From positions 1-32,287 of the forward strand of contig JAHQVX010000044.1 of assembly GCA_019634125.1 (NCBI GenBank): a stretch of 32,287 nt of DNA, read 5' to 3'. Each line of letters opens with the position of its first letter. The stretch's first letter is position 1. The stretch is from Saprospiraceae bacterium. GTDB lineage: Bacteria > Bacteroidota > Bacteroidia > Chitinophagales > JAHQVX01. Under the pieces are notes generated by a model. That model saw only the letters and a list, made by a program, of their open reading frames with translations. It searched no databases and was not told where the DNA came from. A program made the position numbers and the translations under genes. Shown piece by piece: positions 2,690 to 32,227 of this stretch.

Positions 2690-3959
2690 AGCACTCCTCG
2701 TAACGTATTACTGGCCGCCTTGCGGGGGTGTAAGTGTGATGCGTTGGTTGAAGTTTTGCAAGTACTTGCCTGAAATGGGTATTGAGCCTATCGTATACGC
2801 GCCTGCAAATGCAGATTATCCTACCCGAGACGATGTGCTGACGAAACAAATTCCATCATCTCTTCAGGTATTGATGCGTCCGATTCGGGAGCCTAACTCC
2901 GTCTTTAAAAAGCTAACATTCCGAAAGGACACGAATTACGGCAGTGATGTATTTTCGGATAAATCGTCTTGGATGAAGCGGCAAGCGTTGAAAATTCGCG
3001 CCAATTATTTCATTCCCGATTCGCGTATGTTCTGGATTAAGCCTTCGGTGAAGTATTTACGAGAATATTTAGAGGAAAACCCGGTAGATATTCTAATCAC
3101 CAACGGAACGCCACATAGTTGCCACGTAATTGGATTCGAATTGAAGCAGTTGTTTCCTGATTTACCTTGGTTAGCTGATTTTCGGGATCCTTGGATGGAG
3201 ATTGATTTTTTCGAGGAATTGAATTTAAGCGCGCGTGCGCGCGCTTCACATGAGCAACTCGAAAAGGCTGTACTTACTACCGCAGATGCCATTACCACGG
3301 TAAGTCCGAGTTGGGCCGATTTGTTTGCCGCCAAAGGCGGCAAAAACATCCACACCATCACCAATGGCTACGATATCGACGACTTTCATTACTTAAAACC
3401 CTACGAGAAGCAAAAGCCATACCTCATCAGCCATGTAGGTACATTAAATGCTTCTCGGAACGCCGAATCGTTTTGGGCAGTCTTGCATCAACTCCAACGT
3501 GAACAACCACAACTCGCCGAACAACTAGAAGTACTTTTGGTGGGCCCGATCGATCAAAGTATCCAAGCAGCTGCCGAGCAATTAGGGGGAATGGTGCGAC
3601 TCACCTCCTCTGTTCCGCATAAAGCAGCCATTAGCATTATGAAAGCCAGTGATATCCTCTGGCTGGCCAATAACTCTACCGGAGCCACTAAGGGCAGAAT
3701 CCCCGCAAAATTGTTTGAATACATCGGTGCGGAAAAACCCATTCTCTACACGGGATCATTAGACAACGACGCCGCACACATTATTCAAACACACCAACTT
3801 GGTCATTGTATGGACTTCCATGCCGCCGAAGGCGGCATGGAATTTATCCAGAAAACCCTGGCCCAACCCAATGAAAAATCTACCATCGACCCTACACCCT
3901 TTCAACGAAAAACATTAACCCAACAACTCGTTAACGTTTTACACCAACTCGTCAAATAA
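2673..3959 (+). CDS. GT4-like glycosyltransferase
   Basis: 428-aa ORF, MKSKHKALLVTYYWPPCGGVSVMRWLKFCKYLPEMG N-terminus and C-terminal GRIPAKLFEYIGAEKPIL. The called start is TTG and overlaps the upstream gene by 17 nt. Confidence 0.85.
   Translation: MKSKHKALLVTYYWPPCGGVSVMRWLKFCKYLPEMGIEPIVYAPANADYPTRDDVLTKQIPSSLQVLMRPIREPNSVFKKLTFRKDTNYGSDVFSDKSSWMKRQALKIRANYFIPDSRMFWIKPSVKYLREYLEENPVDILITNGTPHSCHVIGFELKQLFPDLPWLADFRDPWMEIDFFEELNLSARARASHEQLEKAVLTTADAITTVSPSWADLFAAKGGKNIHTITNGYDIDDFHYLKPYEKQKPYLISHVGTLNASRNAESFWAVLHQLQREQPQLAEQLEVLLVGPIDQSIQAAAEQLGGMVRLTSSVPHKAAISIMKASDILWLANNSTGATKGRIPAKLFEYIGAEKPILYTGSLDNDAAHIIQTHQLGHCMDFHAAEGGMEFIQKTLAQPNEKSTIDPTPFQRKTLTQQLVNVLHQLVK
3227..3246. repeat. 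Intragenic inverted repeat: aagcgcgcg-TG-cgcgcgctt
   Basis: 9-bp perfect arms, 2-nt spacer (8 bp with 4-nt loop), in glycosyltransferase. Confidence 0.9.
3324..3344. repeat. Intragenic inverted repeat: tttgccgcc-AAA-ggcggcaaa
   Basis: 9-bp perfect arms, 3-nt loop. Confidence 0.93.
3816..3842. repeat. Intragenic inverted repeat: ttccatgccgcc-GAA-ggcggcatggaa
   Basis: 12-bp perfect arms, GAA loop. Confidence 0.95.
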
Positions 3960-6333: not shown

Positions 6334-8810
6334 CTTTTCGGCTTTTTGTTCTTCCGAAGGGTATTGTAATCAATGAAATAAGAGACTTTCAGATTAATGA
6401 CATCCGTTTGATCGGCATCCAGTAATTCGCCGAAGTTGTTGAAAAAACCCGTTCGAGTCGTTTCTTGGAAGTCGGAAATCTGCTTTTTATACACTAAAAA
6501 CACATCACTACCTGGAGCGAATCGCCAGTTGAAGATAGCATCTAAATTATACGCCGAAAAGTTGAAGTCAGGCGCCGTGTATTCTGGATTTAAGTCTAAC
6601 TGTCCGTCACTTCTGCGCAGGTTATAGAAATTCTCATAACTTCCTTTATCCCATACATATCGGTTGTTGAGATTGAGGTTCATGTTTTCGTTGAACTTAT
6701 AGCTGAGGTCAAATCCCGCGTTCTGTCGCAATCGGTCACGCTCGCCCATAATCACATCTGAATCCACTTCATCTACATAACCGATATCGTCAGGTCTACT
6801 GTTGTAATTGTAATTCCCGCGTAACAATACTTTATCACTGAAGCGAATTCGTGGTGCGATAAATGCATTATACACCCGAATGGAGTAATAACCGTTAGAA
6901 ACGCCATGTTCTATTTCAGTATCGAAGGCAAATGTTTTCCGATAGTCGGAAGAAAAGCCCATCCCATACCATCCAAAATCTGGGCGTTGGAAGAAGGTTT
7001 CAAAGTCGCCTTGTCGGGGCTCAAAGAAGTCTTTACGGCCTTCTGGGCGTTGAACAGTATACACCCACATATTGTTAAAGTTCTTGAAAGTAGCAAAGGC
7101 ATTCATTCGGGCAGCATAAGCTGTTCTTAGGGAAGGCTGGTAAAGGTTCTCAATCCATGTATTGGCTCGAATGCCGTAATTCTGGAACGTGTTCGTAGGC
7201 TCGTTTACATTGTAACTTCCCCATAAACCATATTCCAGCTGGTTGTTTGTAAATAGAAGTCCAAGATCATTCCGATCGAATTCATCGGATTCAACACTCA
7301 TAAACCCGCCATAGTTGAAGGTTCCACTAATTTTTCCACCTTCGATAAAGGAGGAGAAACCAACATTATTGTTGGTTTCTAACTTTTCAAACACAGTACC
7401 AGATCCATTCTGATAAAAGACAGAGTCTTGGGTAAATATCTGGCTAAGGTTGAAATTCCCTTCCACACCATACTCTACATTTTTATCATTGATTCGAAAT
7501 CCAACACCAGTTACATTCGCGTCACGACCATTTTTAGCCCGGGCTACATTGGTATTAATCAGATTGATTGAAGAGGAGTTCTTTAATGTTTGGTCGAATA
7601 CAACAATATTGTAGTTGGTAAAAGGATCAATCAGGGCTTCTCGACTTTCATTGGTCACAGAGTCGACAACGAGTGCTGTGGCTTCATCTGTAAAGGCGTT
7701 AAAAACACCAATACCAAGGCCGTTTTTGGTTCGTCCAGAAATTTTAGTGGCATTCAGCAGTTTTGTCCGGCCGGGTAATTCCGTCACTTCTTCGTTGGCT
7801 CCAAGGTCGGAATATGGATCAAACTGGAAGCTTAATTGCCCAATTCGCCGGGAATAAAAGAGGTTGTTCTTGGAGAAGAGTTCCGTGCCTTCTGTAAAGA
7901 AGGCGCGGTTTTCATTAAATACTTGCTCGAAAGGCCCTAGGTTAAGTATCTGCTCGTCGGAGCGAACACCGCCAAAATCAGGAATAAGAGTCATGTCGAG
8001 GGTGAAACTCTCATTCAAACCATACTTTAAGTCCATTCCAGCATTAAAGTCTGCCTCTGTGGATGAGCCTGTTGAGCGGCCGATATTGGTAGAGATGAAT
8101 GGAGACAAATTCAACCGAACAGGTGGGTCTATACTTGTTACTCCAGTTAGTTTCCCAGATTGATTGATGAAACCCGCTTGATTCACATCTACGCGGTTCC
8201 AGGATACTTCCTCCCGGTCTCTTCGAATCACTCGCACGAAATTCAATCCCCAATCTTGTACATCGGTTTTAGGAAATCGTATGGCATAATACGGCACTTT
8301 GATTTCTGCTATCCAGCCATCCTCAACAATCTTCACATTACTTTCCCAAACAGCATCCCAACTACTATCTTCTCGTCCTTGTTCACTAAATTTCAGGTCT
8401 AATTGTACACCCGCGGCAGTTACAAAAAATCCAAATCCATTTTGATCATCGTTGAAGGTGTCTAATACGATGGCTAAACGATCGGCATTCACATTGAATT
8501 GATCGCGTTGGCCAAGTTCTTTTAGGATTAACGAAGGGTCATCGTACATCTTAGCTCCGAAATAGATGGCATTGTTATCGTAGACCACCTTAATTTCTGT
8601 CTTCTGACTGGCTGATTCATCTGGATTGGGGCGGAACTGTATGAAATCTGTTGCTACCGGGACATTTTCCCAAGCGGCATCATCGAGATTTCCGTCAATT
8701 TTAGGAGCTTCTGAAATACGAACCGCATTTAATTCTCTTTCTTGTGCGATTGTAAGTACTCCTCCGACTAATAACGCAATGGTTATCAAGGCTTTGCTGA
8801 AAGTGCGCAT
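6330..8810 (-). CDS. DUF5916 domain-containing outer-membrane-like protein with carbohydrate-binding-like N-terminal domain
   Basis: 826-aa ORF; signal peptide; APKIDGNLDDAAWENVPVATDFIQFRPNPDESASQKTEIKVVYD; NENRAFFTEGTELF motif; beta-barrel-like C-terminal half. Confidence 0.88.
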   Translation of the reverse strand: MRTFSKALITIALLVGGVLTIAQERELNAVRISEAPKIDGNLDDAAWENVPVATDFIQFRPNPDESASQKTEIKVVYDNNAIYFGAKMYDDPSLILKELGQRDQFNVNADRLAIVLDTFNDDQNGFGFFVTAAGVQLDLKFSEQGREDSSWDAVWESNVKIVEDGWIAEIKVPYYAIRFPKTDVQDWGLNFVRVIRRDREEVSWNRVDVNQAGFINQSGKLTGVTSIDPPVRLNLSPFISTNIGRSTGSSTEADFNAGMDLKYGLNESFTLDMTLIPDFGGVRSDEQILNLGPFEQVFNENRAFFTEGTELFSKNNLFYSRRIGQLSFQFDPYSDLGANEEVTELPGRTKLLNATKISGRTKNGLGIGVFNAFTDEATALVVDSVTNESREALIDPFTNYNIVVFDQTLKNSSSINLINTNVARAKNGRDANVTGVGFRINDKNVEYGVEGNFNLSQIFTQDSVFYQNGSGTVFEKLETNNNVGFSSFIEGGKISGTFNYGGFMSVESDEFDRNDLGLLFTNNQLEYGLWGSYNVNEPTNTFQNYGIRANTWIENLYQPSLRTAYAARMNAFATFKNFNNMWVYTVQRPEGRKDFFEPRQGDFETFFQRPDFGWYGMGFSSDYRKTFAFDTEIEHGVSNGYYSIRVYNAFIAPRIRFSDKVLLRGNYNYNSRPDDIGYVDEVDSDVIMGERDRLRQNAGFDLSYKFNENMNLNLNNRYVWDKGSYENFYNLRRSDGQLDLNPEYTAPDFNFSAYNLDAIFNWRFAPGSDVFLVYKKQISDFQETTRTGFFNNFGELLDADQTDVINLKVSYFIDYNTLRKNKKPKS
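7883..7908. repeat. Intragenic inverted repeat: ccgtgccttct-GTAA-agaaggcgcgg
   Basis: 11-position stem with one T-G mismatch/wobble, in the NENRAFFTEGTELF region of the DUF5916 CDS. Confidence 0.85.
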
Positions 8811-9938: not shown

Positions 9939-12900
9939 GTGAAATACCTATTCAGTTTAGCATGCTTCTTTTTTGCCTATACACTCTGTGCTCAAGACGG
10001 CTATTGGCAACAGGAAGTGGACTATGTTATTGATGCGGAGTTCTTTCCTGAGCAGGACTCGCTTTCTGGGAACGTTAAACTCATTTACACCAATAATTCG
10101 CCTGATGCCTTAGAAGAAATTTATTTTCATTTATGGTTGAATGCGCATTCCAGCACGAGCACTGCTTTTTCAAAGCAGTTAGTAGCGCATGGAAACAAAG
10201 ACTTTTACATTGCCGACGACTCGCAACGAGGAGGCATTAGCGGCATCGATTTTTTTGTAAACGACCAGCAAGTAGATGCCGTATTCAGTTCAAACGAACC
10301 AGAAATTATAAAACTGCCGCTTCCAGCGGCAGTTCAACCAGGACAATCGGTAACTATAAGCACACCCTTTGAAGTCCAGCTGCCCTTTTTATTCTCTCGT
10401 CCGGGCTTTGATGGACAAGTCTACCACTTCACCCAGTGGTTCCCCAAACCAGCCGTTTACGACGCAGATGGCTGGCACCTCATGCCCTACCTCGATATGG
10501 GTGAGTATTACGCCGAGTTTGGCCAGTTCGAAGTCAACATCTTCGCGCCGGGCGATATGGTCATTGCTGCTACTGGTGAACTCCAAAATGAGTCGGAAGT
10601 CAACTGGCTCGAAGCCCTAGAAACCGCCACTAGAAACGGAATCAAAGACCAGTATTCCTTCGATGAAGTAGCCGCGCTAAAAGCAGAAAAGGCGGCAACA
10701 ACTCGTTTATGGACATTCAAACAAGACCGCATCCATGACTTCGCTTGGTTTGCCAGCAAGGACTTCCTCTACCTGCAAAAGCCTGTATTAATTGGTGAGG
10801 AAACAGTCCAAGCCCGTGCCTTTTTCTTGGAAGACGATGTTTTCCTTTGGGAACAAGCCCCCAATTACATCGCCCAAGGTTTATCCTTCTACTCCGAAAA
10901 AGTAGGCGATTATCCGTACGCGCATTGCACCGCCGTAGGCGGTGCGCTTCAGGCTGGTGGCGGCATGGAATACCCGATGATCACCGTCATCTCCCCTACA
11001 GATAATGATATCGCCCTGAAAACAGTGATTGTACACGAAGTGGGCCACAACTGGTTTCAAAGCATGCTCGGAAGCAACGAACGCAGCAGCCCGTGGCTCG
11101 ATGAAGGTATTAACTCGCTTTATGAAGAATGGGCACTAGGAGCAGAAATTGGCGTGAATGACCTAGAGTTTCGATTTCAAAAACTCGGCTATTCCTTGAT
11201 GAACTCCAGGCATACCAACCAGGCCATTACAGAAGCCTCGCAGAAACTTACACCAACCAACTATTACCTCGATATTTATGGCGCTGGCGCCTTTGCCACC
11301 TATTACTTAAAGGAATACCTTGGAGAAAGCGCCTTCACGGCTGGCATGCAGGATTATTTCAATACTTGGAAATTCAAACATCCGAACAACGAGTCGTTGC
11401 AACGAAGCCTTGAAAAGGCTTCGGGTAAGGATTTAATGTGGTTCTTCCAGCAATTAATTGTGGCTGAACAAACCTTCGACTATAAGGTAAAAGGTTTAGA
11501 AGGCAATAACATTCGTATTGAGAACACCACCAACATTGAAGCCCCGTTTACACTGACTTACCTGGATGAAACAGGTAAAATTCTCGAGGAGAATTGGCAG
11601 GAAGGCTTTACAGGCGAAGCATTGATTCCCTTATCTCGAAGTGATTTCCACCAAGTAAAAATCTTTCATCGTGAGCTCTTCCCAGAAACCAATAGACAGA
11701 ACAATTCGATCAAATCGTCGGGCCTTTTTCCAAAAAATGAGAAAATCAAGCTTGTAGGCTTAAAAAGCGGTCAGAACGTATTGGCGGGCAAAAGCGATCA
11801 GCCGCTGTTATTCCTCACGCCTTCCGTACTTTGGAATGCCGTCGATAAGTTCTCCATTGGTCCGAGCTTAACGAATACTTCCCTTATTGAAAAGCCTTTT
11901 GAATATACGTTGCTGCCGAACTACTCTTTCGGCTCGTCTGACCTAGTGGGCATGGGCGAAGTCCGTTACACGATTTTCCCGGAAAGTACTACTTTCCAAT
12001 ATATTCGTCCGAGTATCCGTGGCCGCCAATTCCACTATAATACCTTTCAAGATGTAGAATTGAAATACATCCAAGCCCAGCCGCAAATTGAATTCGCCTT
12101 TAAAAAGCCGGAAGTTCGAAGCAGTGTTCAAAAGAAACTCATTCTTCAATCTAGAATCAACTGGATAGAGCCAGAACCAGATGTAAACACGACTACGAAT
12201 GAGCTGATACAATATGATTTAGAAAGTGAGGTATTTAATACACTTGAATTTATCCGTGAAAACGATCGACCATTCAATCCAAACACTGGTCGAATTTGGG
12301 TCGAGCAAAATGAGAACTTTGGGAAGTTATCTGGTGAATACAAATACCGATACGACTTCAAGAACGAAGATCGGCACGTATGGTTTCGGGCATTTGGCGG
12401 AACGATGCTGTATACAGAAACTGGGGCTCCAACGATTAGTCGATTTACGGCTATGAGTAGGTATAATAATACCGATTATGCTTTGCGGGATTTACAGCTC
12501 GACCGAACCGGCGCGGTATACAGTGGCAGTCGATTTTTCTACGATAATGTGGAGACGAATAACTTCCAGAATAATTGGATTCGGGAAAGCGACGGCGGTT
12601 TAAAAATGAAGCGCTATAGTGCCAACCTCTCGGAAGTGGTTGGCGAGTGGATGGCTGCAACGAATGTTGCAGCCTCAGTTCCCGTAGATCTACCATTTGG
12701 GGATTTACGCGTCTTCGGTGATCTGGCCGTTTTTCAAGACCTTGGACTTACCGAAGCTGAACAAACACGCGCCTTGTACGATGTTGGAATCAGTTATGGA
12801 TTTTCCGATTTCTTCAGACTCTATTATCCATTGGCCTTCTCCGATGAGTTTAAACCTGATATAGACGACCTGACCTTTTCCGAAAAACTGACCTTTTCCC

Positions 12901-14158: not shown

Positions 14159-14678
14159 CACCTATAATAAAACGCATCAACGAAGGTTCCTAAAGACGTT
14201 GGAGTTCATGGCAGATTTAGATTTAAAGTCGGCCTCTATCCTGAATCTTGGGCCAGACAATCCGCTGTCTGACTTATTGATCGCGAACGGTTATTCGGTG
14301 ACAAATACTGCACCAGGCCTAGACCTCGACTTGGATTACGATGTGGTGAAAGATGGGACTTATTCTGCCGTAATTGGATTTGAAATCTTAGAGCATTTAG
14401 TGTCGCCCTTCCCGTTATTGCAGCATATCGCTGGGAATAAGTTGGTACTCAGTGTTCCGCTATCGTTATGGTTTGCGCCTGCTTATTGGAATGAATCGGA
14501 TCCATACGATCGGCATTACCATGAGTTTGAGCCGCGGCAGCTTAAGATGTTGCTTGAAAAGGCGGGTTGGAAGGTGAAGAAAGAAGCAAAGTTTACGAAT
14601 CCGAGTGGTAAAATAGGGCTTCGCCCTATTTTACGGGCCATTACACCCCGACACTATTTCGTTTACTGCGAGCGGTGA
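14139..14678 (+). CDS. Small class I SAM-dependent methyltransferase-like protein
   Basis: 179-aa ORF overlapping the glycosyltransferase; SILNLGPDNPLSDLLIANGYSVTNTA, IGFEILEHLVSPFPLL, HYHEFEPRQLKMLLEKAGW pattern. Confidence 0.75.
   Translation: MKAIQNNTYNKTHQRRFLKTLEFMADLDLKSASILNLGPDNPLSDLLIANGYSVTNTAPGLDLDLDYDVVKDGTYSAVIGFEILEHLVSPFPLLQHIAGNKLVLSVPLSLWFAPAYWNESDPYDRHYHEFEPRQLKMLLEKAGWKVKKEAKFTNPSGKIGLRPILRAITPRHYFVYCER
14608..14634. repeat. Intragenic inverted repeat: gtaaaatagggc-TTC-gccctattttac
   Basis: 12-bp perfect arms, TTC loop, near the 3' end of the methyltransferase-like CDS. Confidence 0.95.
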
Positions 14679-16495: not shown

Positions 16496-17275
16496 TTAAA
16501 CGGTTTTATTGATGGCTCTAAGGGCTTGAGTAGTTTCCAGATAAGCTTGTTGCGCTTGCTGAAGCAAGCGCTCTGGCACCACGATATTGGAGTAATCCCC
16601 TCTGTTTTTCACAATTTTCCCCGACTTAATATGGTCGGACGGGTCGCCGGCACCGAAGGTGCCGGTTAATGCAAAGGTGTCATACTCCTGACTAAGTGGT
16701 CGATCTAACTCGAGGTGTGCTTCGATGGCGCGGAGGACTTTTGGAGTATCATCTACGACGTCTTGAGCGTCGATGAAGAGGGCTTTGCCCTCTAACTTTT
16801 GGCCCAATTTCTTCAAGCGCCGAAGGCGCTTGATGTAATACTGCGTAACCTTCTCCGGATTTCGATACCAAGCCACCATGGTCGACATCTTTTGTCCCAT
16901 ATTGATCACACTCTTTATGGTTTTTTCAGGCTCTCGAACCATAATCAGCGCATGAACGTTGGGCTTTAGAAGAATGTTAGGCGCTACGGTATAGTTGTTA
17001 TGCAAAACCTTATCGAACAGGAACTTCGGGCCGCTCTGTGCTTTGGCGACCAGCTTGGCTTTGTATTTCAATTTCAAGAAACTAAACCACGAGCGGTAAC
17101 TCTGGTGCATTTCAGAATAACCTAAAATATTCGGGTGACTGCCAATAATATGACTCAAAACAGAAGTATAGCCCCGCATATGACTGAGTAAAAACACATA
17201 ATGATTGCGCTCTGTCATTGCTTTTGGGTTGATTACGTCCTTAAGAATTGCTTTCATCAAATTACTGCGTAACAA
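16496..17275 (-). CDS. Sulfotransferase-like protein
   Basis: YVFLLSHMRGYTSVLSHIIGSHPNILGYSEMHQSYRSW resembles a PAPS-binding/P-loop sulfotransferase N-terminus; VREPEKTIKSVINM. Confidence 0.7.
   Translation of the reverse strand: MLRSNLMKAILKDVINPKAMTERNHYVFLLSHMRGYTSVLSHIIGSHPNILGYSEMHQSYRSWFSFLKLKYKAKLVAKAQSGPKFLFDKVLHNNYTVAPNILLKPNVHALIMVREPEKTIKSVINMGQKMSTMVAWYRNPEKVTQYYIKRLRRLKKLGQKLEGKALFIDAQDVVDDTPKVLRAIEAHLELDRPLSQEYDTFALTGTFGAGDPSDHIKSGKIVKNRGDYSNIVVPERLLQQAQQAYLETTQALRAINKTV
16552..16571. repeat. Intragenic inverted repeat: gcgcttgc-TGAA-gcaagcgc
   Basis: 8-bp arms with 4-nt loop (9 bp with 2-nt spacer), sulfotransferase-like CDS. Confidence 0.9.
16647..16665. repeat. Intragenic inverted repeat: ccggcacc-GAA-ggtgccgg
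   Basis: 8-bp perfect arms, GAA loop. Confidence 0.92.
16777..16793. repeat. Intragenic inverted repeat: agagggc-TTT-gccctct
   Basis: 7-bp perfect arms, 3-nt loop; individually weak, but in a cluster. Confidence 0.8.
16813..16833. repeat. Intragenic inverted repeat: tcaagcgcc-GAA-ggcgcttga
   Basis: 9-bp perfect arms, GAA loop. Confidence 0.93.
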
Positions 17276-17324: not shown

Positions 17325-18464
17325 ATGAGACTCCTACTTTTCTTTTCCTTACTTATTGGAACATTTTCTTCCAATGCCCAAGAATCGAATTTCATTATAA
17401 AAAAAGTCACCGTTTTCGATGGAGAGCAAGTCCTTGAGGACATGGATGTTGTTGTTCGTGAAGGGAAAATTGACGCTGTTTTAAAGTCGAAGAAAAAGAA
17501 TGAGAAAGGATTAGAAGTAGTTGAGGGGAAAGGAAAATTCTTAATGCCTGGTTTGATGAATGCGCATGTACATGCTTGGGCACCTGATCAAACGAAAGAG
17601 GCTGCTTTAGCGGGTGTGCTCACCGTATTCGACATGATGGGCAATCCATTTAGCATGCAGATGAATAAGAATGCTGCAGAAAAAGCCCAACATGCAAGTT
17701 ATTTCAGTGCTGGCTTTGGTGCTACCGTGCCCGGAGGGCACGGTACGCAGTTCGGTCTTGAAGTACCTACCATCAAATCCGATGAGGATATTATTCCCTT
17801 TGTGCAAGCTCGCGTAGATGAAAATGTAGACTACTTAAAAATCTTGTACGAACCCTTGATGGAGGCCTTAACACCTCAACAAGTCAACGCATTAATTCAA
17901 GAAGCTCACCGCCAAGAATTATTGGCTGTTACGCATATTTCATTCTTAGAAAATGCCCTTGAAGTGGCAGAGTTTGGTGGTGATGGCTTGGTCCACTCGT
18001 GGTTCGACAAAGTAGCCAGTGATGAGCAAATTGATCAACTGGCAGAAAGTGGCATCTGGATCGTTCCAACTGCCTTAGTCATTAAGCTATACTTACCCTT
18101 AACTAGAAAGAACTTTGACGTAGACGTAATTGATGAGGAAGGCTTGTTGGAAAATATTCGAAAGATGTACCAAGCCGATATCTTGCTACTGGCAGGCACA
18201 GATCCCCCAAATGCTCAGATCAATTACGGAACGGATCTCTACAAAGAGCTTTACCTCTTTAGAGATGCGGGGCTAACGCCAATAGACATCTTGAAAACTG
18301 CCACTTCGAACGTGGCCAAAGCCTTTCAGCTCGACGATCGAGGTTTGATACAGCCTGGATTACGCGCCGACTTATTGTTGATCGACGGGAATCCGTTGGA
18401 ACGGATCGAAGACGTGGAAAAGATCGAACGAATTTGGAAGGCAGGAGAACTAGTCGAAGACTAG
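17325..18464 (+). CDS. Amidohydrolase family protein
   Basis: Signal peptide; KGKFLMPGLMNAHVHAW metal-binding motif, VTHISF, LLAGTDPPN, LRADLLLIDGNPLE. Confidence 0.9.
   Translation: MRLLLFFSLLIGTFSSNAQESNFIIKKVTVFDGEQVLEDMDVVVREGKIDAVLKSKKKNEKGLEVVEGKGKFLMPGLMNAHVHAWAPDQTKEAALAGVLTVFDMMGNPFSMQMNKNAAEKAQHASYFSAGFGATVPGGHGTQFGLEVPTIKSDEDIIPFVQARVDENVDYLKILYEPLMEALTPQQVNALIQEAHRQELLAVTHISFLENALEVAEFGGDGLVHSWFDKVASDEQIDQLAESGIWIVPTALVIKLYLPLTRKNFDVDVIDEEGLLENIRKMYQADILLLAGTDPPNAQINYGTDLYKELYLFRDAGLTPIDILKTATSNVAKAFQLDDRGLIQPGLRADLLLIDGNPLERIEDVEKIERIWKAGELVED
17723..17745. repeat. Intragenic inverted repeat: taccgtgccc-GGA-gggcacggta
   Basis: 10-bp perfect arms, 3-nt loop, amidohydrolase CDS. 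Confidence 0.93.
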
Positions 18465-18468
18465 TTCT
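18446..18468. repeat. Inverted repeat over two convergent stop codons: agaactagtc-GAA-gactagttct
   Basis: 10-bp perfect arms, GAA loop; the right arm holds the shared CTAG of both stops. Confidence 0.94.
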
Positions 18469-21842: not shown

Positions 21843-24110
21843 TTAATCAATGATCATCAGCTTTGCGAATTTAAGCAATAGTTTTTTGTTTCCATGATTT
21901 TTAAAGAAAACAGTAGCCATTTTCTTACTGGCTTCTCCTTCTAAGCCAATGATTTTACCATCGCCAAAGCGTTGGTGCATGACTTGATGGCCTACTGCCA
22001 GCTCATTCACATTAGACGGCTCAAAATTGTCGATATTCAGCTTTTGCGGCAGCTTGCGTTCAGGCACTTTTTTATGGACCTTCAAGCCGGAGAACTTGGG
22101 TTCTTTCTCTACGACGCGTTGAGGTTGAATTCCAATAAGCTCCTTACTTCCATCCGGAATTTCCTCAAGGAAACGGCTGGGTTCTGGATAAATAAGGTCT
22201 CCAAATTTATAGCGTGTTGTCGCATAGGTGAGGTATAGCTGGCGTTTAGCTCGAGTCACCGCCACATAGAACAGGCGACGTTCTTCTTCCAGATCTTCTC
22301 TGCTGTAAGTAGAAAGGACCGATGGGAACAGGTTTTCCTCCATCCCCCCTACAAAAACCACTTCAAACTCTAGGCCTTTCGCGGCATGAATGGTCATCAA
22401 TTTCACTTGATCGGCAGATGGGTTTTCATTGTCGGCATCCGTGAGCAAGCTCACGGATTGGAGGTAAGCCCCAAGCCCACGATCGTCTGTATCTTCCAAA
22501 CCTTCCACCACTTGATCGTTCACGCTAAACTCCTTAATAGAGTTTAATAGTTCTTGGTAGTTGTCGAAACGGTTCACGCCTTCAACGCTCTTATCGTTGT
22601 ACAGTAAAGCCTGCAATCCCGTACTCTTGGCAATATGCTCCGCCAACTCAAAGGCATCCATCCGATCTTGCATGGCCTGGAAGCTCTTAATTTTGACCAC
22701 AAAATCGCGAATGGCATTTTTCGGACGAGTGCCTAACGGGAAATGATCAATATTCGCCACAATATCCCAAAGGGCGCATTCATTTTCTTTGGCCCAAACA
22801 GTTACCCGCTCAATACTGGCATTTCCAATTCCACGCGTTGGGAAATTAATAACTCTACGCAACGCTTCCTCATCGTTGGGATTCACAACCAGACGTAAAT
22901 ACGCCAACATATCCTTTACTTCCTTACGTTGGTAGAACGACAGCCCACCATAAATTCGGTAAGGAATATTTTTCCGCCGCAAGGCTTCCTCCATCGCTCT
23001 GGACTGCGCATTGGTTCGATATAAAATCGCAAAGTCGTTATTGCGTATATGATGTTGCATCTTATACTCGAAGATTTGCGCAGCAACCCACGCCCCTTCT
23101 TCATTGTCGCTCGCATTTCGAACCACTTTTAGCTTCTCTCCCGGATGATTATCCGTCCAAATGGTTTTAGCATGCTGGTTCTTATTGAACTTAATAATTT
23201 CATTCGCAGCCTCTACAATATGCTTCGTGCTGCGATAGTTCTGCTCAAGCTTAAAGGTTCGAAGATCAGGATAATCTTTATTCAGGTTTAGAATATTCTG
23301 GATAGTCGCCCCCCGGAATCCATATATACTCTGCGCATCGTCGCCTACCACACATACATTTTCATGAACAGCACTTAAGAGTTTAACAATTTGGTATTGG
23401 GCATGGTTGGTATCTTGAAACTCATCGATCATCACATGCGAATACCGCGTTTGGTATTTATGTAAGACATCGGGAAATTGATCTAAGAGTTGGTGCATTT
23501 TAAGAAGGAGATCGTCGAAATCCATAGCTCCCGACAGGAAGCATCTCCGGGCATACTCCCGATAGATCTGCGCCATTTTCGGTCGACCACTGCTTTCATC
23601 CTCGCTGGTTAATTCAGGGATTCCAGCATAGGCTTCCGCGTTGATCAGGCTATTCTTAGCACTGGAAATTCGGTTTAAAACGATGTTGGGCTTATAGAGT
23701 TTTTCGTTCACGCCCATTTCCTTCACGATTTTCTTGATCAGGCTTTTACTGTCTTGTGTATCGTAAATGGTGAAATTGGATGGGTAGTTCAAGCGATGGG
23801 CTTCGTAGCGAAGAATGCGGGCGAAGATGGAGTGAAACGTGCCCATCCATAGGTTTTTCGCTTCGTTACCTACGATTTTCTCGATCCGTTCGCGCATTTC
23901 CCGCGCGGCTTTATTGGTAAAGGTGAGGGCAAGAATACGAAATGGATCCACGCCATTATTAATGAGGTGGGCCACTCGAAAAGTAAGTACACGGGTTTTG
24001 CCGGACCCTGGTCCGGCAATAATCATCACTGGGCCATCAGTCGCCTCCACTGCGGCCCGTTGGGCCGCATTCAATCCTTCTAAATACTGCTTCGTACTCG
24101 ATCCTTCCAT
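21843..24110 (-). CDS. UvrD/PcrA-type ATP-dependent DNA helicase
   Basis: SF1 motifs: LNAAQRAAVEATDGPVMIIAGPGSGKTRVL, VMIDEFQDTNHAQY, VVGDDAQSIYGFRGA, LEQNYRS, LMTIHAAKGLEF, YVAVTRAK. Confidence 0.96.
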   Translation of the reverse strand: MEGSSTKQYLEGLNAAQRAAVEATDGPVMIIAGPGSGKTRVLTFRVAHLINNGVDPFRILALTFTNKAAREMRERIEKIVGNEAKNLWMGTFHSIFARILRYEAHRLNYPSNFTIYDTQDSKSLIKKIVKEMGVNEKLYKPNIVLNRISSAKNSLINAEAYAGIPELTSEDESSGRPKMAQIYREYARRCFLSGAMDFDDLLLKMHQLLDQFPDVLHKYQTRYSHVMIDEFQDTNHAQYQIVKLLSAVHENVCVVGDDAQSIYGFRGATIQNILNLNKDYPDLRTFKLEQNYRSTKHIVEAANEIIKFNKNQHAKTIWTDNHPGEKLKVVRNASDNEEGAWVAAQIFEYKMQHHIRNNDFAILYRTNAQSRAMEEALRRKNIPYRIYGGLSFYQRKEVKDMLAYLRLVVNPNDEEALRRVINFPTRGIGNASIERVTVWAKENECALWDIVANIDHFPLGTRPKNAIRDFVVKIKSFQAMQDRMDAFELAEHIAKSTGLQALLYNDKSVEGVNRFDNYQELLNSIKEFSVNDQVVEGLEDTDDRGLGAYLQSVSLLTDADNENPSADQVKLMTIHAAKGLEFEVVFVGGMEENLFPSVLSTYSREDLEEERRLFYVAVTRAKRQLYLTYATTRYKFGDLIYPEPSRFLEEIPDGSKELIGIQPQRVVEKEPKFSGLKVHKKVPERKLPQKLNIDNFEPSNVNELAVGHQVMHQRFGDGKIIGLEGEASKKMATVFFKNHGNKKLLLKFAKLMIID
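22437..22458. repeat. Intragenic inverted repeat: atccgtgagc-AA-gctcacggat
   Basis: 10-bp perfect arms, 2-nt spacer (9 bp with CAAG loop), uvrD-like CDS. Confidence 0.92.
23998..24019. repeat. Intragenic inverted repeat over Walker A codons: ttgccggacc-CT-ggtccggcaa
   Basis: 10-bp perfect arms, 2-nt spacer (9 bp with CCTG loop), encodes part of IIAGPGSGKT. Confidence 0.93.
24051..24069. repeat. Intragenic inverted repeat: tgcggccc-GTT-gggccgca
   Basis: 8-bp perfect arms, 3-nt loop, uvrD-like CDS Q-motif region (LNAAQRAAVEA). Confidence 0.9.
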
Positions 24111-25457: not shown

Positions 25458-27401
25458 ATGAAGTCTTATTTAACCATATTTTTTTTATTAGCAATCATCC
25501 CACTCGCGAATGCGAGTGGGAATGATTCGTTATTCAATGCCTCAGTAGCCAAATGGCAACATTTCCAGCACGGGCGAAATGCTGACTCGTTCCTATTCTA
25601 CACCAAACAGGTGGCTCAGTTAGCAGATGATTCCCAAGACCTCAACCAACTAGCCACAGCAAAAAGGGTGAATGGCTATTATCAAATGGCACAAGGCCGT
25701 TTCGAGCAAGCCGAGGCTTTTTTCAACGATGCCTTAACACAGGCCAGAGAAAACAAATTTGTTGATCATGAAATAAAAGCACTCTGGGGCTTGTATAAGA
25801 ATTTGAATGCCCAGCAATACTATCACTCAGCACTTAAGTTTGCTTATGATGCCTTAGCCTTAGCCGAGCAGAAGGATGATAAAATACTGCAGGTGAATCT
25901 GCTTATTGTTATCGCTGAAAATCTAAGGTTGCAAAAAGAATTTGAAAAAGGGCTTGAAGCATTGGAAAACGCTGCTTCTATCGATGAAAAGATTAGCCCA
26001 AAGCTGGACATTAATGCAGCAAAGATCTTTAATGACCGAGGAAATATCTTTAGTGAGTCGGGGGAAATTGACGCGGCTATTTTTGATTATGAACGTGCCA
26101 TTGAAATTTATTCGCGGCTGAACGATTCCATTCAACTAACAACGACTTTTTCCAACCTGGGTCAAACCTACCGATTAAAAGGCAGCCAACCTTTTTTTGA
26201 CAAGGCATACGATGCACTGTACAAAAGCTTAGAATTCTCTAAAACGATTGGTTACGAGCAGCGAACCATTCAAAATTTGATTTCATTAGCAGAAGTAGAT
26301 ATCGACCTGAAGCAATACAACATTGCTTTAAATCGCACTTTAGAGGCTGAACAACTCAACCAAAAGTTAAACAATAAGAGTCTCACCTATTACATCGAAA
26401 ACAACAAACACCTCATTTACCAAGCACAAGGAAAATACAATCAGTCTTTGGCTGCATTCGAACGCGCTACGAAGATTAAAGAAGAACTAAACAGCACCGA
26501 ACGTGCCATTGTGGTTACCGACCTTCTTGCTCAGTATGAGCTGGAGAAAAACGAAAAAGAGCTACTTGAAAAAGGAATTCAACTCAGAAAGACCAAAAAC
26601 TTATCTGTTATCCTTGGAATCACTTCGGGCATATTACTACTTATTTTTTTTGGTGGGTTAAGGTTCTGGAGACTCTATCAACGAAACACAAAATTATTAC
26701 AGGAGCAAAAATCGCTGAAGCACCAACAAAAAATCGTGGAATTAGAAAGCAAGGCTGAAATGCAAGCGATTAATGCCATGTTAGACGGAAGGGATAAGGA
26801 AAGACAGGCGATTGCAGAAACCCTACATGATAGCGTGAGCACATTACTTTCTTCAGCCAATATGCATTTACAAGCAGTTAAGCATAAGGTTAATGGAGAA
26901 ATGCCCGCAATTCAAAAGACCCAGCGAATCATAAAGGAAGCCTCTCAGAAAGTTCGCTTCTTATCGCATGAATTGATCTCATCTATTCTGATCAAGTTTG
27001 GTATGGAAGCCGCTATGAATGATTTGGTGGATAAAATCAGTAACGATCACCTTCAATTCCAGGCAGAATGTTCTGGATTAGACCAACGTTTTCCCATTGA
27101 ATTTGAAACTAAGATCTATCATATCATTGAGGAGTTGTGCAATAATATTTTAAAACACAGTAAGGCCACCAAAGCGAAGATTTCGTTGCACCGAACAGAG
27201 GAACAACTTATTCTTGAAGTTTGGGATAATGGCATTGGCTTCCCAGTAGTCACCAATACAGAGTACTCTGGCATAGGTTTGAACAAAATTCGTGCTCGAG
27301 TAAAAGGCATGGATGGGGTGATGGCAGTAGACAGTCAGACCGGCGAATATGCCAGAATCACCATTAAACTGCCTGTTGCGGAAGCTATTGAACTCGCATA
27401 A
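25458..27401 (+). CDS. TPR-repeat sensor histidine kinase (HisKA_3/HATPase_c, DegS/NarX-like)
   Basis: Signal peptide, TPR-like repeats, one TM near residue 390, ERQAIAETLHDSVSTLLSS H-box, IIEELCNNILKH N-box, WDNGIGF and SGIGLNKIRARV. Confidence 0.92.
   Translation: MKSYLTIFFLLAIIPLANASGNDSLFNASVAKWQHFQHGRNADSFLFYTKQVAQLADDSQDLNQLATAKRVNGYYQMAQGRFEQAEAFFNDALTQARENKFVDHEIKALWGLYKNLNAQQYYHSALKFAYDALALAEQKDDKILQVNLLIVIAENLRLQKEFEKGLEALENAASIDEKISPKLDINAAKIFNDRGNIFSESGEIDAAIFDYERAIEIYSRLNDSIQLTTTFSNLGQTYRLKGSQPFFDKAYDALYKSLEFSKTIGYEQRTIQNLISLAEVDIDLKQYNIALNRTLEAEQLNQKLNNKSLTYYIENNKHLIYQAQGKYNQSLAAFERATKIKEELNSTERAIVVTDLLAQYELEKNEKELLEKGIQLRKTKNLSVILGITSGILLLIFFGGLRFWRLYQRNTKLLQEQKSLKHQQKIVELESKAEMQAINAMLDGRDKERQAIAETLHDSVSTLLSSANMHLQAVKHKVNGEMPAIQKTQRIIKEASQKVRFLSHELISSILIKFGMEAAMNDLVDKISNDHLQFQAECSGLDQRFPIEFETKIYHIIEELCNNILKHSKATKAKISLHRTEEQLILEVWDNGIGFPVVTNTEYSGIGLNKIRARVKGMDGVMAVDSQTGEYARITIKLPVAEAIELA
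25498..25521. repeat. Intragenic inverted repeat: tcccactcgc-GAAT-gcgagtggga
   Basis: 10-bp perfect arms, 4-nt loop, over the signal-peptide region of the first histidine kinase. Confidence 0.93.
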
Positions 27402-27474: not shown

Positions 27475-29256
27475 ATGTTTATGAGATGGGGCCTGGTCGT
27501 TTTATTGCTTATGTTTTGGGTTGGGGTTTCTGCACAAGAAAACCAACTAGATACCGCTATTGAACTATTCGAAAGCGAGCGATATGACTCCGCATTTTCT
27601 GTTTTAGAAGAACTTCCCGACGATGCTACTTCCTTAAGATATAAAGCACTCATTCATTTAAAACGTTTCGATTATAGAAATGCATTAGAGCATATTCAAA
27701 AAGGCTTAACTATTGCCGATTCGCTTCAGCTCGTGCAAGAAAAGGTAGAACTCCTCGAAGCATTTGGTACATTTTACAAGGAACAAGAAGACATTGATAA
27801 TGCGATGCGCCAATACACCTTAGCTAAGACCATTGCTAATGACGCTGGCTTAGAGCGAAATGCTCAAATTCTGAATTTAAAGATTAGCGCGGTCTACCTG
27901 TCTAAAATCAATGTTGAACTGGATAAAGAAAAAGAGCCATTATTAGCCGATACAGTCCTACTCCTATCTGACGAATCTAAAGCCTATTTTGAAGAAAACG
28001 TTGACCATTCTTTATTAGCGGACATCTACAATGCACAAGCTGCGGCCTATTTGATAAAAGGAGACTACGAAAAAGCAGATAGCTTTTTCGGACAATGCAT
28101 TTACGAGCACCAATTCATTGATAAGCCCACAAAATATGGCTGGGCACTATACAACTGGGCGACTTCCAATTTGTTCCAAGAGAAATACCGATTGAGTGAA
28201 CAACAGTTTAAGGAAGTCATCAAAATTGGGGAAGAACATGATAAGAAGCTGCGAACTGCTGCCAAACACAACTTGACGTTTGTATACTATTATGAAGACA
28301 ACCATAAAGCTGCATTAGAAACCTACTTTGACTATGTCTACGAAAAAGACAGTCTGGACCAAGTCGCCAAAAACGCCGATTTAGAACGTTTTGAGGCCGA
28401 CATGAACAACCAAATCCTGGAAAAAGAGCGCATTAATGCCAAGGCCGATGCCTTAGAAAGTTCGCTAAAGGCGAAGAAATTACAAACGTGGTTAATCGGT
28501 ATTAGTGGCCTGTTACTCGCTGCGGTATTCAGCTTTGTGTTCTTGAATCAACGGGCTCGGTTTCGACGAAAAGACTTAGAGTTTCAGTTAAGGCAACAAG
28601 CGCAAGCCACAGAAATTAGAGCGATTAACGCCATGATTGATGGTCGAGAAAAAGAACGTCATTCCATTGCGGCAACGTTGCACGATAGCGTGGCAAGCAT
28701 GCTGGCTTCTGCCAGCATGCATCTGCAAGCCTTCAAACTAAAAAGTAGTGAGACCAATACTTCGTTATCCAAAACTCAAACCATCATTCAAGACGTCACC
28801 ACGAAGGTGCGCAACCTTTCCCACTCACTCGTCTCGCCCGTTTTATTGCGCTTCGGTTTGGAAAAAGCCATAGAAGGATTATGCGACCGCGTTAACTCTG
28901 AGCAATTACTCGTAGAACATAGTATTCATCTAGAGAACGATCGTTTTGAACGCGATTTCGAGGGCAAAATTTTTGGCATTATTGAAGAATTGTTTAACAA
29001 CATCATTAAGCACAGTCAAGCCAGTCAGGCATCGATTAGCCTAAGTGAAAAAGAAGGCTATCTCTTGCTGAATGTAAAAGACAATGGAATTGGCTTTGTG
29101 AAAGAAAAAGACCTCGGAGATGGACTGGGTTTATTCCAGATTTCAGCGCGGGTGAAAAGCCTGGGTGGCGAAACCGACATCCTAACTACTCCCCAATTGG
29201 GCACCTCTATAAATATTAAAGTTCCCGTTCAAATGGTGCCGGAACTGGTCTCTTGA
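27475..29256 (+). CDS. TPR-repeat sensor histidine kinase, paralogue of the upstream gene
   Basis: ERHSIAATLHDSVASMLASASMHLQ H-box, IIEELFNNIIKHSQAS N-box, VKDNGIGF; same architecture as 25458-27401. Confidence 0.92.
   Translation: MFMRWGLVVLLLMFWVGVSAQENQLDTAIELFESERYDSAFSVLEELPDDATSLRYKALIHLKRFDYRNALEHIQKGLTIADSLQLVQEKVELLEAFGTFYKEQEDIDNAMRQYTLAKTIANDAGLERNAQILNLKISAVYLSKINVELDKEKEPLLADTVLLLSDESKAYFEENVDHSLLADIYNAQAAAYLIKGDYEKADSFFGQCIYEHQFIDKPTKYGWALYNWATSNLFQEKYRLSEQQFKEVIKIGEEHDKKLRTAAKHNLTFVYYYEDNHKAALETYFDYVYEKDSLDQVAKNADLERFEADMNNQILEKERINAKADALESSLKAKKLQTWLIGISGLLLAAVFSFVFLNQRARFRRKDLEFQLRQQAQATEIRAINAMIDGREKERHSIAATLHDSVASMLASASMHLQAFKLKSSETNTSLSKTQTIIQDVTTKVRNLSHSLVSPVLLRFGLEKAIEGLCDRVNSEQLLVEHSIHLENDRFERDFEGKIFGIIEELFNNIIKHSQASQASISLSEKEGYLLLNVKDNGIGFVKEKDLGDGLGLFQISARVKSLGGETDILTTPQLGTSINIKVPVQMVPELVS
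28697..28720. repeat. Intragenic inverted repeat in H-box region: gcatgctggc-TTCT-gccagcatgc
   Basis: 10-bp perfect arms, 4-nt loop; absent from the aligned region of the paralogous kinase. Confidence 0.94.
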
Positions 29257-29356: not shown

Positions 29357-32227
29357 ATGCCAAAGTCAGTAGAAGCCAACAAAAAATCAACCGTTACTCA
29401 GGAGTCTGTAACTCAAAAATTCATACATGTAGAAGGGGCTCGGGTACACAACTTAAAGAATATTGATGTTTCGATTCCTCGCAACCAGTTTGTAGTTATT
29501 ACAGGAATTAGCGGCAGTGGTAAGTCTTCTTTAGCATTTGATACGATTTATGCGGAAGGCCAGCGCCGCTACATGGAAAGTTTTTCGGCTTATGCTCGTC
29601 AATTCGTAGGCGGTTTTGAGCGACCTGATGTCGACAAAATCACCGGGCTAAGCCCGGTGATTTCCATCGAGCAGAAAACAGTATCCAAAAACCCTCGATC
29701 TACAGTAGGCACAACCACCGAAATCTACGACTTTATTCGCCTCCTCTTCGCTCGTGCATCCACAGCCTATTCCTATAATACAGGCAAGGAAATGGTCAAA
29801 TTCACCGAGCAACAAATCGTAGACAATATCCTAGAAGAATACGAAGGATGTAGGGTGAACATACTCGCCCCACTCGTTCGAGGGAGAAAAGGTCATTACC
29901 GAGAACTCTTCGAAAATATTCGCAAGCAAGGCTTCCTCAAAGTTCGCGTAGATGGCGAAATCATTGAAGTGACTCCGAAAATGCAAGTGGATCGCTACAA
30001 GATCCATGACATTGAAGTGGTCATCGATCGAATGACAGTCAAAGAAAGCGATCGAATTCGACTCCTTCAATCCATTCAACAAGCCTTCAAAACCAGTAAG
30101 AACCTCATTATGGTCATGGACCATGATACTGAAGCGACCAAACTCTTCAGTAAAACCCTGATGTGTGTCGACACAGGGATTTCCTACGAAGAACCCTCTC
30201 CAAACACCTTCTCCTTTAACAGTCCCTACGGCGCTTGTCCGTCTTGTAATGGACTCGGGCAAATTAAAGAAGTAGACCCAAAACTCATCATCCCAGACCA
30301 TAGCAAATCCATCAACCAACAAGGCATTGCACCCTATGGCGAAGTCAGAGATAATTACTCCTTCAAACAACTCCGTGCTATTGCAAAGAAGTTTGAATTC
30401 TCCTTTTCGACGCCTGTTAAAGACATCCCTGAAAAGGCCATGGATATTATCCTAAATGGCTCCAACGGCGAAACATTTAAGGTAGACATGGGCTATAAAT
30501 CAGGGAGAGCGTATGATTTAGAATACGAAGGTTTAATTTCTTTACTTAACCGCTCGTACGAAACCACCCAAACCGATAAAATTCGGAAATGGGCCGAGGA
30601 GTTCATGACGAAGACAACTTGCCCAACTTGTGATGGGGCAAGACTTCGGAAGGAAAGTCTTTGGTTTAAAATCGCAGATAAGAACATTGCCGAAATTGCC
30701 GAAAAAGACATTCTAGAATTAGCGGACTGGTTTGAAGGTGTTGAAGATTCCATGTCGGACAGGCAGCGTACAATTGCAAAAGATATTCTAAAAGAAATTC
30801 GAGAACGCATTGGTTTTTTAAAGGAAGTTGGCCTAACATATCTTAGCCTCAACCGCCCGACACGATCGTTATCTGGTGGGGAAAGTCAACGCATTCGATT
30901 GGCCAGTCAGATTGGCTCTAAGCTTCGAGGCATTACCTATATTTTAGATGAACCGAGTATTGGTCTCCACCAACGCGATAACCATAACCTTATCACCGCG
31001 CTAAAAGGTCTGGCAGATGGCGGAAATACGGTTTTAGTAGTCGAACACGATAAAGATATCATGCTGGAAAGTGATTACTTAATCGACATTGGCCCTGCAG
31101 CTGGAAAGCATGGCGGAAAGATTGTTGGCCAGGGTACACCCAGCGAATTTGCTCAATTAAATACGCTTACTGCGCATTACCTTCATGGCGATATCAAAAT
31201 TGATATTCCGGAAGAACGCCGGCCGGGCAACAGCCATCAACTGGTGTTGAAAGGGGCAAGCGGGAACAACTTAAAAGATGTAACCATTAAGCTGCCACTG
31301 GGTAAGTTCATTTGTGTTACAGGCGTCTCCGGCTCTGGAAAAAGCACCTTAATCAACGAAACGCTTTACCCCATCTTGAATGCCCATATTTTTCGCGGGA
31401 AGAAAAAACCACTGCCTTATACAAAGATCCAAGGATTGGAGCATGTAGACAAAGTCATTGAAATTGACCAAAGCCCAATCGGACGGACACCGCGCTCAAA
31501 TCCCGCTACCTACATTGGTGTATTCACCGATATACGAAAATTATTTAGTGAGTTGCCTGAAGCAAAAATCAGAGGGTATAAACCTGGTCGGTTTAGTTTC
31601 AACGTAAAAGGAGGCCGCTGTGAAGTCTGCCAAGGCGGTGGAATGAAAGTGATCGAAATGAACTTCCTCCCAGATGTACTTGTAGAATGCGAAGGTTGTC
31701 AGGGCCGCAGATTTAATCGTGAAACGCTAGAAGTCCGCTACAAAGGCAAGAGTATTAGTGATGTACTAGACATGACGGTTTCGGAGGCAGTCAGCTTCTT
31801 CGAAGCTGTCCCGTCCATCTATAGAAAACTAAAGACCTTAGAAGATGTTGGCTTAACGTACCTCACGCTGGGCCAAAGCTCAACTACAATTTCGGGTGGA
31901 GAGGCACAGCGCGTGAAGCTCGCTAGCGAGCTTCAAAAGAAAGATACCGGCCAAACCTTCTACATCCTCGACGAGCCCACCACTGGCCTCCATTTTGAAG
32001 ACATCCGTCAATTACTCAAAATCCTAAACCGATTGGTAGACCGTGGGAATACAGTGCTCGTCATCGAGCATAATTTAGACATCGTTAAAGCCGCTGATTG
32101 GATCATTGATTTAGGGCCTGAAGGAGGAGCTGCTGGTGGTCAAATCGTTGCAGAAGGCACTCCAGAACAACTCATCAAAAAGAAAAACAGCCATACTGCC
32201 CGCTTCCTGAAAGAGGAATTAAGCTAA
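29357..32227 (+). CDS. uvrA: Excinuclease ABC subunit A
   Basis: GISGSGKSSLAFDTIYAEGQRRYMESFSAYARQF, zinc-finger CPSCNGLG and CEVCQGGG, LSGGESQRIRLASQIG, ISGGEAQRVKLASELQKK. Confidence 0.98.
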   Translation: MPKSVEANKKSTVTQESVTQKFIHVEGARVHNLKNIDVSIPRNQFVVITGISGSGKSSLAFDTIYAEGQRRYMESFSAYARQFVGGFERPDVDKITGLSPVISIEQKTVSKNPRSTVGTTTEIYDFIRLLFARASTAYSYNTGKEMVKFTEQQIVDNILEEYEGCRVNILAPLVRGRKGHYRELFENIRKQGFLKVRVDGEIIEVTPKMQVDRYKIHDIEVVIDRMTVKESDRIRLLQSIQQAFKTSKNLIMVMDHDTEATKLFSKTLMCVDTGISYEEPSPNTFSFNSPYGACPSCNGLGQIKEVDPKLIIPDHSKSINQQGIAPYGEVRDNYSFKQLRAIAKKFEFSFSTPVKDIPEKAMDIILNGSNGETFKVDMGYKSGRAYDLEYEGLISLLNRSYETTQTDKIRKWAEEFMTKTTCPTCDGARLRKESLWFKIADKNIAEIAEKDILELADWFEGVEDSMSDRQRTIAKDILKEIRERIGFLKEVGLTYLSLNRPTRSLSGGESQRIRLASQIGSKLRGITYILDEPSIGLHQRDNHNLITALKGLADGGNTVLVVEHDKDIMLESDYLIDIGPAAGKHGGKIVGQGTPSEFAQLNTLTAHYLHGDIKIDIPEERRPGNSHQLVLKGASGNNLKDVTIKLPLGKFICVTGVSGSGKSTLINETLYPILNAHIFRGKKKPLPYTKIQGLEHVDKVIEIDQSPIGRTPRSNPATYIGVFTDIRKLFSELPEAKIRGYKPGRFSFNVKGGRCEVCQGGGMKVIEMNFLPDVLVECEGCQGRRFNRETLEVRYKGKSISDVLDMTVSEAVSFFEAVPSIYRKLKTLEDVGLTYLTLGQSSTTISGGEAQRVKLASELQKKDTGQTFYILDEPTTGLHFEDIRQLLKILNRLVDRGNTVLVIEHNLDIVKAADWIIDLGPEGGAAGGQIVAEGTPEQLIKKKNSHTARFLKEELS
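29637..29663. repeat. Intragenic inverted repeat in uvrA: aaatcaccgggc-TAA-gcccggtgattt
   Basis: 12-bp perfect arms with 3-nt loop (13 bp if a 1-nt spacer is counted), over KITGLSPVIS. Confidence 0.95.
31792..31808. repeat. Intragenic inverted repeat in uvrA: cagcttc-TTC-gaagctg
   Basis: 7-bp perfect arms, TTC loop. Confidence 0.8.
31914..31935. repeat. Perfect 22-nt palindrome in uvrA: tgaagctcgctagcgagcttca
   Basis: 11-bp arms, no spacer, over QRVKLASELQK just after the second ABC signature motif. Confidence 0.95.

Follow-up and report, generated by a model that had tools for sequence, protein, structure and literature searches.

The palindrome at positions 28697-28720 of the window (the whole stretch of 32,287 nucleotides analysed here, from a Saprospiraceae bacterium) is, in our opinion, probably one product of fold-back template switching, also called quasipalindrome correction, acting genome-wide and in a lineage-specific manner. 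It lies in the second of two adjacent HisKA_3 histidine kinase genes (25458-27401 and 27475-29256) and reads GCATGCTGGC-TTCT-GCCAGCATGC, which is a perfect 10-bp inverted repeat around a 4-nt loop, placed in frame over residues SMLASASMH of the ORF. The host kinase scores above the curated cut-offs for PF07730 and PF02518, and a search with it as query against the genome contigs did not find relatives. As RNA, the palindrome region is more stably folded than most of its shuffled versions (z = -2.3), its loop TTCT/AGAA is not among the best loop types, and Rfam gave no match at gathering score anywhere in the window. An intrinsic terminator was ruled out for this hairpin, as it is located inside the CDS and is followed by ATCTGC, with no T-run.

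The first-pass annotation had presented the palindrome as a natural control, found in one kinase paralogue and missing from the other, and had explained it by the copying of right-arm sequence into the left arm, with amino acid changes next to the phospho-accepting His. The palindrome was confirmed, with perfect arms at 28697-28706 and 28711-28720, and an inverted repeat was not found at the aligned place of the first kinase (26835 onward). The greater difference of the left arm from the paralogue was also borne out by base-by-base alignment, in which 4 of 10 left-arm bases and 8 of 10 right-arm bases are shared. One detail needs correction: the phospho-acceptor is the His of LHD, which precedes the left arm by five residues, and not the His of SMH. 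As a natural control the pair is weak: the H-box palindrome is restricted to one paralogue, but the first kinase has a hairpin of its own (25498-25521) and the second one has another (28068-28090). The window as a whole contains 27 perfect hairpins with arms of at least 8 bp and loops of 3-12 nt, 26 of them with loops of 3-5 nt. The features discussed are collected in Table 1.

Table 1. Kinase genes, parts of the H-box palindrome and other hairpins in the window.
Feature	Position	Strand	Remarks
First TPR - HisKA_3 - HATPase_c histidine kinase	25458-27401	+	paralogue, 39% identical, without the H-box hairpin
Hairpin in first kinase	25498-25521	+	10-bp arms, loop GAAT
Second TPR - HisKA_3 - HATPase_c histidine kinase	27475-29256	+	bears the 28697-28720 hairpin
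Second hairpin in second kinase	28068-28090	+	9-bp arms, 5-nt loop
Left arm GCATGCTGGC	28697-28706	+	4/10 bases in common with paralogue
Loop TTCT	28707-28710	+	4 nt, AGAA on the opposite strand, closed by C-G
Right arm GCCAGCATGC	28711-28720	+	8/10 bases in common with paralogue
Hairpin in uvrA	29637-29663	+	over KITGLSPVIS
Palindrome in uvrA	31914-31935	+	perfect, 11+11, over VKLASELQ
Hairpin over Walker-A-like motif	23998-24019	-	exactly over IAGPGSGK
Hairpin	22437-22458	-	10-bp arms
Hairpin	18446-18468	.	10-bp arms, loop GAA; partly outside called ORFs (overlaps end of ORF 17325-18464)
Hairpin	17723-17745	+	10-bp arms, loop GGA
Hairpin	16813-16833	-	9-bp arms, loop GAA
Hairpin	14608-14634	+	12-bp arms, loop TTC
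Hairpin	11403-11423	+	9-bp arms, loop GAA
Hairpin	10312-10334	+	10-bp arms, loop TCC
Hairpin	7355-7380	-	11-bp arms, 4-nt loop
Hairpin	3816-3842	+	12-bp arms, loop GAA
Hairpin	3324-3344	+	9-bp arms, loop AAA
Hairpin	461-481	+	9-bp arms, loop TCC

The size of the class was computed on 1.64 Mb of the 2.20-Mb draft genome, a metagenome-like assembly of 146 contigs that is 83% complete and that falls within the order Chitinophagales, judging by related genomes. Perfect hairpins with arms of at least 9 bp and loops of 2-4 nt number 595 in 1.50 Mb of coding DNA, and extrapolation to the whole genome, intergenic regions included, gives roughly a thousand. With arms of at least 10 bp and loops of 2-5 nt the density is 25.5 per 100 kb of CDS (first 0.56 Mb), against 0.7-0.9 in about 100 relatives, in which the excess of coding hairpins is only small. 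Loops of 8-19 nt in the same genome served as control and gave arms of at least 10 bp at 0.03 per 100 kb of CDS per loop size (first 0.56 Mb). The kinase hairpin is therefore well outside chance expectation, but nothing unusual in this genome. Centres of the form C[AAA/GAA/GGA]G carry a stem of at least 8 bp in 372 of 11,416 cases (3.3%, intergenic ones included), compared with 3 of 12,265 (0.02%) in the same relatives; favoured-loop hairpins are thus about 130-fold more abundant here. A coincidence of chance or codon usage at this one locus is very improbable in view of the control loops and of a genome-wide excess that includes the kinase locus, even if only about two base changes would let the right arm of the paralogue pair perfectly with the left arm and any single hairpin locus could arise by chance despite the class-level excess.

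The spacing of the hairpins is close to random (CV 0.93) and their arms are unrelated in sequence to one another. Multiple insertion of a mobile or repetitive palindromic element (REP, MITE or mobile hairpin) would also leave small hairpins scattered over the genome, and one minor repeated family does exist, but we find this explanation hardly credible: the kinase hairpin is single-copy even if 3 mismatches are allowed, the arms have no common sequence, and the hairpins are not insertions relative to homologues. Indeed, alignments with homologues for a first set of 47 hairpins gave no excess of gaps inside the hairpin segments compared with outside. The repeated family is a small one of the form CTATGGACT-NN-AGTCCATAG, with copies at L037:4404 and 5225, L049:11234, L210:3611, L241:1716 and L247:13209; those examined, on L037 and L247, lie between genes and have their loops in different orientations.

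The hairpins follow strict rules of stem and loop. Stem lengths at C[AAA/GAA/GGA]G centres in CDS, on either strand, decrease geometrically to about 5 bp, rise again to a distinct maximum at 9-10 bp (class 9-11) and end at 13 bp. The dependence on loop sequence is more than 100-fold, from 3.4% for C[AAA], 2.7% for C[GAA] and 2.6% for C[GGA] to zero for the loops CTC, CTA, CGC, CGA, CAC and ACG. The value for C[AAA] is raised by the inclusion of intergenic terminator-like hairpins; the rates in CDS only are 1.2% for C[AAA], 2.5% for GGA and 2.1% for GAA. Besides the triloops, GNNA tetraloops closed by C-G are enriched nine-fold over other loops. Outside coding DNA, the stems of triloop hairpins are longer (peak at 12-13 bp) than in CDS, and the long-stem intergenic ones are probably intrinsic terminators that use the same loops.

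GNA and GNNA loops with G-C stems, such as d(GCGAAGC), form extraordinarily stable and exonuclease-resistant DNA mini-hairpins (PMC4686876). The loop and closing-pair preferences of these superstable structures are the same as those of the genome hairpins, although the former are in-vitro oligonucleotides, whereas here the rules appear as a signature of genome evolution. A ranking of triloops by DNA energy was uninformative, the parameter set having no triloop-specific terms. The loop classes and their complements occur at similar per-triplet rates on the sense and antisense strands, and thus the effect is at the level of DNA and not of mRNA. The 5' arms are rich in A and C and the 3' arms in G and T, whichever strand is read, an asymmetry for which duplex stability gave no explanation.

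Within proteins, the hairpins largely spare conserved positions. Identity of the arms to homologues is 0.40, compared with 0.43 in shifted control windows (n = 147, p = 0.04), and the less well conserved arm falls below expectation (n = 147 hairpins, p = 0.01). Hairpins are under-represented in the codon phase by which first codon positions are coupled to second ones (p = 0.0025). Some hairpins are present over conserved motifs, for example KITGLSPVIS of UvrA and the Walker-A-like IAGPGSGK. This protein context also has to be considered in relation to a sequencing, amplification or assembly artefact, that is, chimeric fold-back. Fold-back chimeras are a known laboratory artefact, and the draft is a metagenome-like assembly in 146 contigs. 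However, arm overwriting of this origin would erase the conservation of one arm, while the arms remain close to their controls; moreover, ORFs stay open, the hairpin rate varies with codon phase, and the same hairpins are found again in separately assembled copies that are 87-97% identical. We think that an artefact is very unlikely.

Comparison of related copies within the genome gives traces of the copying itself. At L201:11020 and L232:8587, contig ends that are 96% identical and likely allelic, the loop is exactly inverted (GAA/TTC) with the arms unchanged. A loop inversion of GA/TC was also found between copies of a repeat family at 80% identity, and in several diverged copies the arms are unchanged while the loops and flanks have changed. 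The ORF at L252:8209-11371 consists of 52-aa GCDS repeats, two of which share their hairpin arms but differ in the loop, TTC in one and GAA in the other. Its right arm, GGTTGTGATT, is also present in repeats that have no hairpin, whereas the matching left arm is confined to the two hairpin-bearing repeats; the left arm is therefore the new one in this case.

That this class of palindromes arose by the copying of one arm into the other, as the first-pass annotation had supposed for the kinase, is well supported by the loop-sequence dependence, the discrete peak of arm length, the lack of insertions, the spacer inversions and the repeats with one private arm. Perfect inverted repeats with short spacers, in-register replacement without change of length, and inversion of the spacer are among the marks of a quasipalindrome switch, and these three are found here. 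What we infer from these patterns is the step taken by the polymerase, when it occurs and why. During DNA synthesis, the nascent 3' end would leave its template, and the nascent strand would fold back about a mini-loop of very high stability (C-GNA-G, C-AAA-G or GNNA). The folded 3' end would then copy about 9-11 nt of its own fresh strand and rejoin the template in register, by which one flank would become the exact reverse complement of the other with the length unchanged. Because the replacement is length-neutral, reading frames would survive and only the outcomes tolerated by the protein would be kept. Existing hairpins would be prone to further rounds, in which arms would be re-perfected and the loop flipped. 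An exceptional, lineage-specific rate of fold-back switching fits these observations.

The right-to-left direction proposed for the kinase locus is another matter, as the signals there point both ways. In a set of 34 H-boxes from homologues (28-43% identical), the residues most often found at the corresponding left-arm positions are M and L (about 14 of 34 and 27 of 34), while the right-arm Ser8 occurs in just 1 of 34, at a position dominated by K and R. Judged by the kinase family, the left arm looks ancestral and the right arm could be the copy. On the other hand, the left arm contains CTG, the rarest Leu codon (9% of Leu codons), and this codon, together with the greater difference from the paralogue, points to the left arm as the possible copy. 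The first kinase is itself atypical in the left-arm region, and the direction stays two-sided because there is only one paralogue, at 39% identity. Over the whole class, conservation is lower in the sense 5' arm (0.374 against 0.430), with a one-sided p of 0.03 against shifted controls and a non-significant paired test (p = 0.12), which fits right-to-left copying weakly. The two arms could not be told apart by codon usage, and no derived 3' arm emerged when the hairpins were oriented by their GNA strand.

A further property of the class is its near perfection: perfect hairpins, those with one internal mismatch and those with two stand at 265 : 38 : 15. Simple gain followed by unhindered neutral decay would be expected to give perfect and imperfect classes of similar size, so that the observed ratio implies a recent burst, re-perfecting by repeated switching, or selection. 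If selection on structure were responsible, the hairpins would be functional sites, for DNA-hairpin binding, single-stranded DNA initiation, mRNA stability or pausing. The few imperfect copies, the discrete stems of 9-11 bp and the constancy of arms in several diverged copies with altered flanks and loops all speak for it. Nevertheless, we consider it unlikely, given that arm sequences are unrelated and their spacing near random, that loop classes are about equally frequent on the sense and antisense strands (which argues against selection at the RNA level), and that hairpins occur inside conserved catalytic motifs such as Walker A while relatives do without them. A stronger form of the fold-back explanation, to which we give slightly more credit while still regarding it as doubtful, is that a dedicated or altered enzyme writes and re-perfects the hairpins. 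A fold-back tract of about 10 nt would be seeded at C-GNA-G or C-AAA-G and upheld by continual self-copying, as a bacterial chromosomal counterpart of the palindromes in nematomorph mitochondria.

Regarding the cause of frequent fold-back switching, mutS, polA and recG are present in the genome. RecJ, which is otherwise nearly universal in the Chitinophagales and was above cut-off in 27 of the 31 genomes searched, was not found in the 83%-complete assembly; neither were SbcD (above cut-off) and XseA, which are also missing from many hairpin-poor relatives. Another genome of the comparison, G030, likewise gave no match to RecJ, SbcD or XseA. Given the incomplete assembly, we treat the absence of these genes as no more than a lead. 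Loss of SbcCD or ExoVII was rejected as a sufficient cause, as many relatives are without them and one genome without both (G008) has ordinary hairpin counts.

Quasipalindrome template-switch mutation has been studied with lacZ QP reporters in E. coli (PMC7202029), and in yeast such switches have been placed on the strain tree, within genes, with arms of 10-11 bp and loops tcc/gga, ttc/gaa and aa/tt (PMC8604942). The genome hairpins resemble both systems in their perfect arms of about 10 bp, loops of 2-5 nt, in-register homogenisation and spacer inversion, and the loops gaa/ttc, gga/tcc and aa/tt are common to the yeast events and to ours. The scale is different: 39 genes over all S. cerevisiae strains examined (PMC8604942), compared with hundreds of hairpins and a steep loop dependence in one bacterial genome. 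Mitochondria of Nematomorpha also have perfect inverted repeats in functional genes, with near-binary perfection, a codon-phase bias and no obvious function (PMC6649704). The near-binary perfection and the codon-phase bias are found here as well, but nematomorph palindromes reach 284 bp and are mitochondrial, whereas the present ones have stems of 9-13 bp (arms around 3-nt loops in CDS end at 13 bp) and defined loops, and are located on a bacterial chromosome.

Close inverted repeats are over-represented in prokaryotic genomes, and in some genera they lie inside coding regions, according to the parts of a survey that we draw on (PMC4060949); a discrete arm-length peak and a GNA/AAA loop rule, as found here, are not described in those parts. 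Because coding palindromes occur in some genera, a milder hairpin excess may be commoner than our comparison set suggests. In the open-access papers searched, with subscription journals outside the search, we did not find such a density of fold-back hairpins described for one bacterium, so we regard the density as new and the mechanism as known.

So far, template switching of this kind has been seen in reporter genes and in a few dozen genes of yeast, and here it appears to shape a whole bacterial genome. Hundreds of events give direct access to the loop rules, the tract length, the strand bias and the protein filter. A single mutational mechanism could supply many clustered amino acid changes, which standard tests might misread as positive selection. 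We see in this organism a natural mutant that lends itself to a search for the factors by which fold-back copying is normally kept down.
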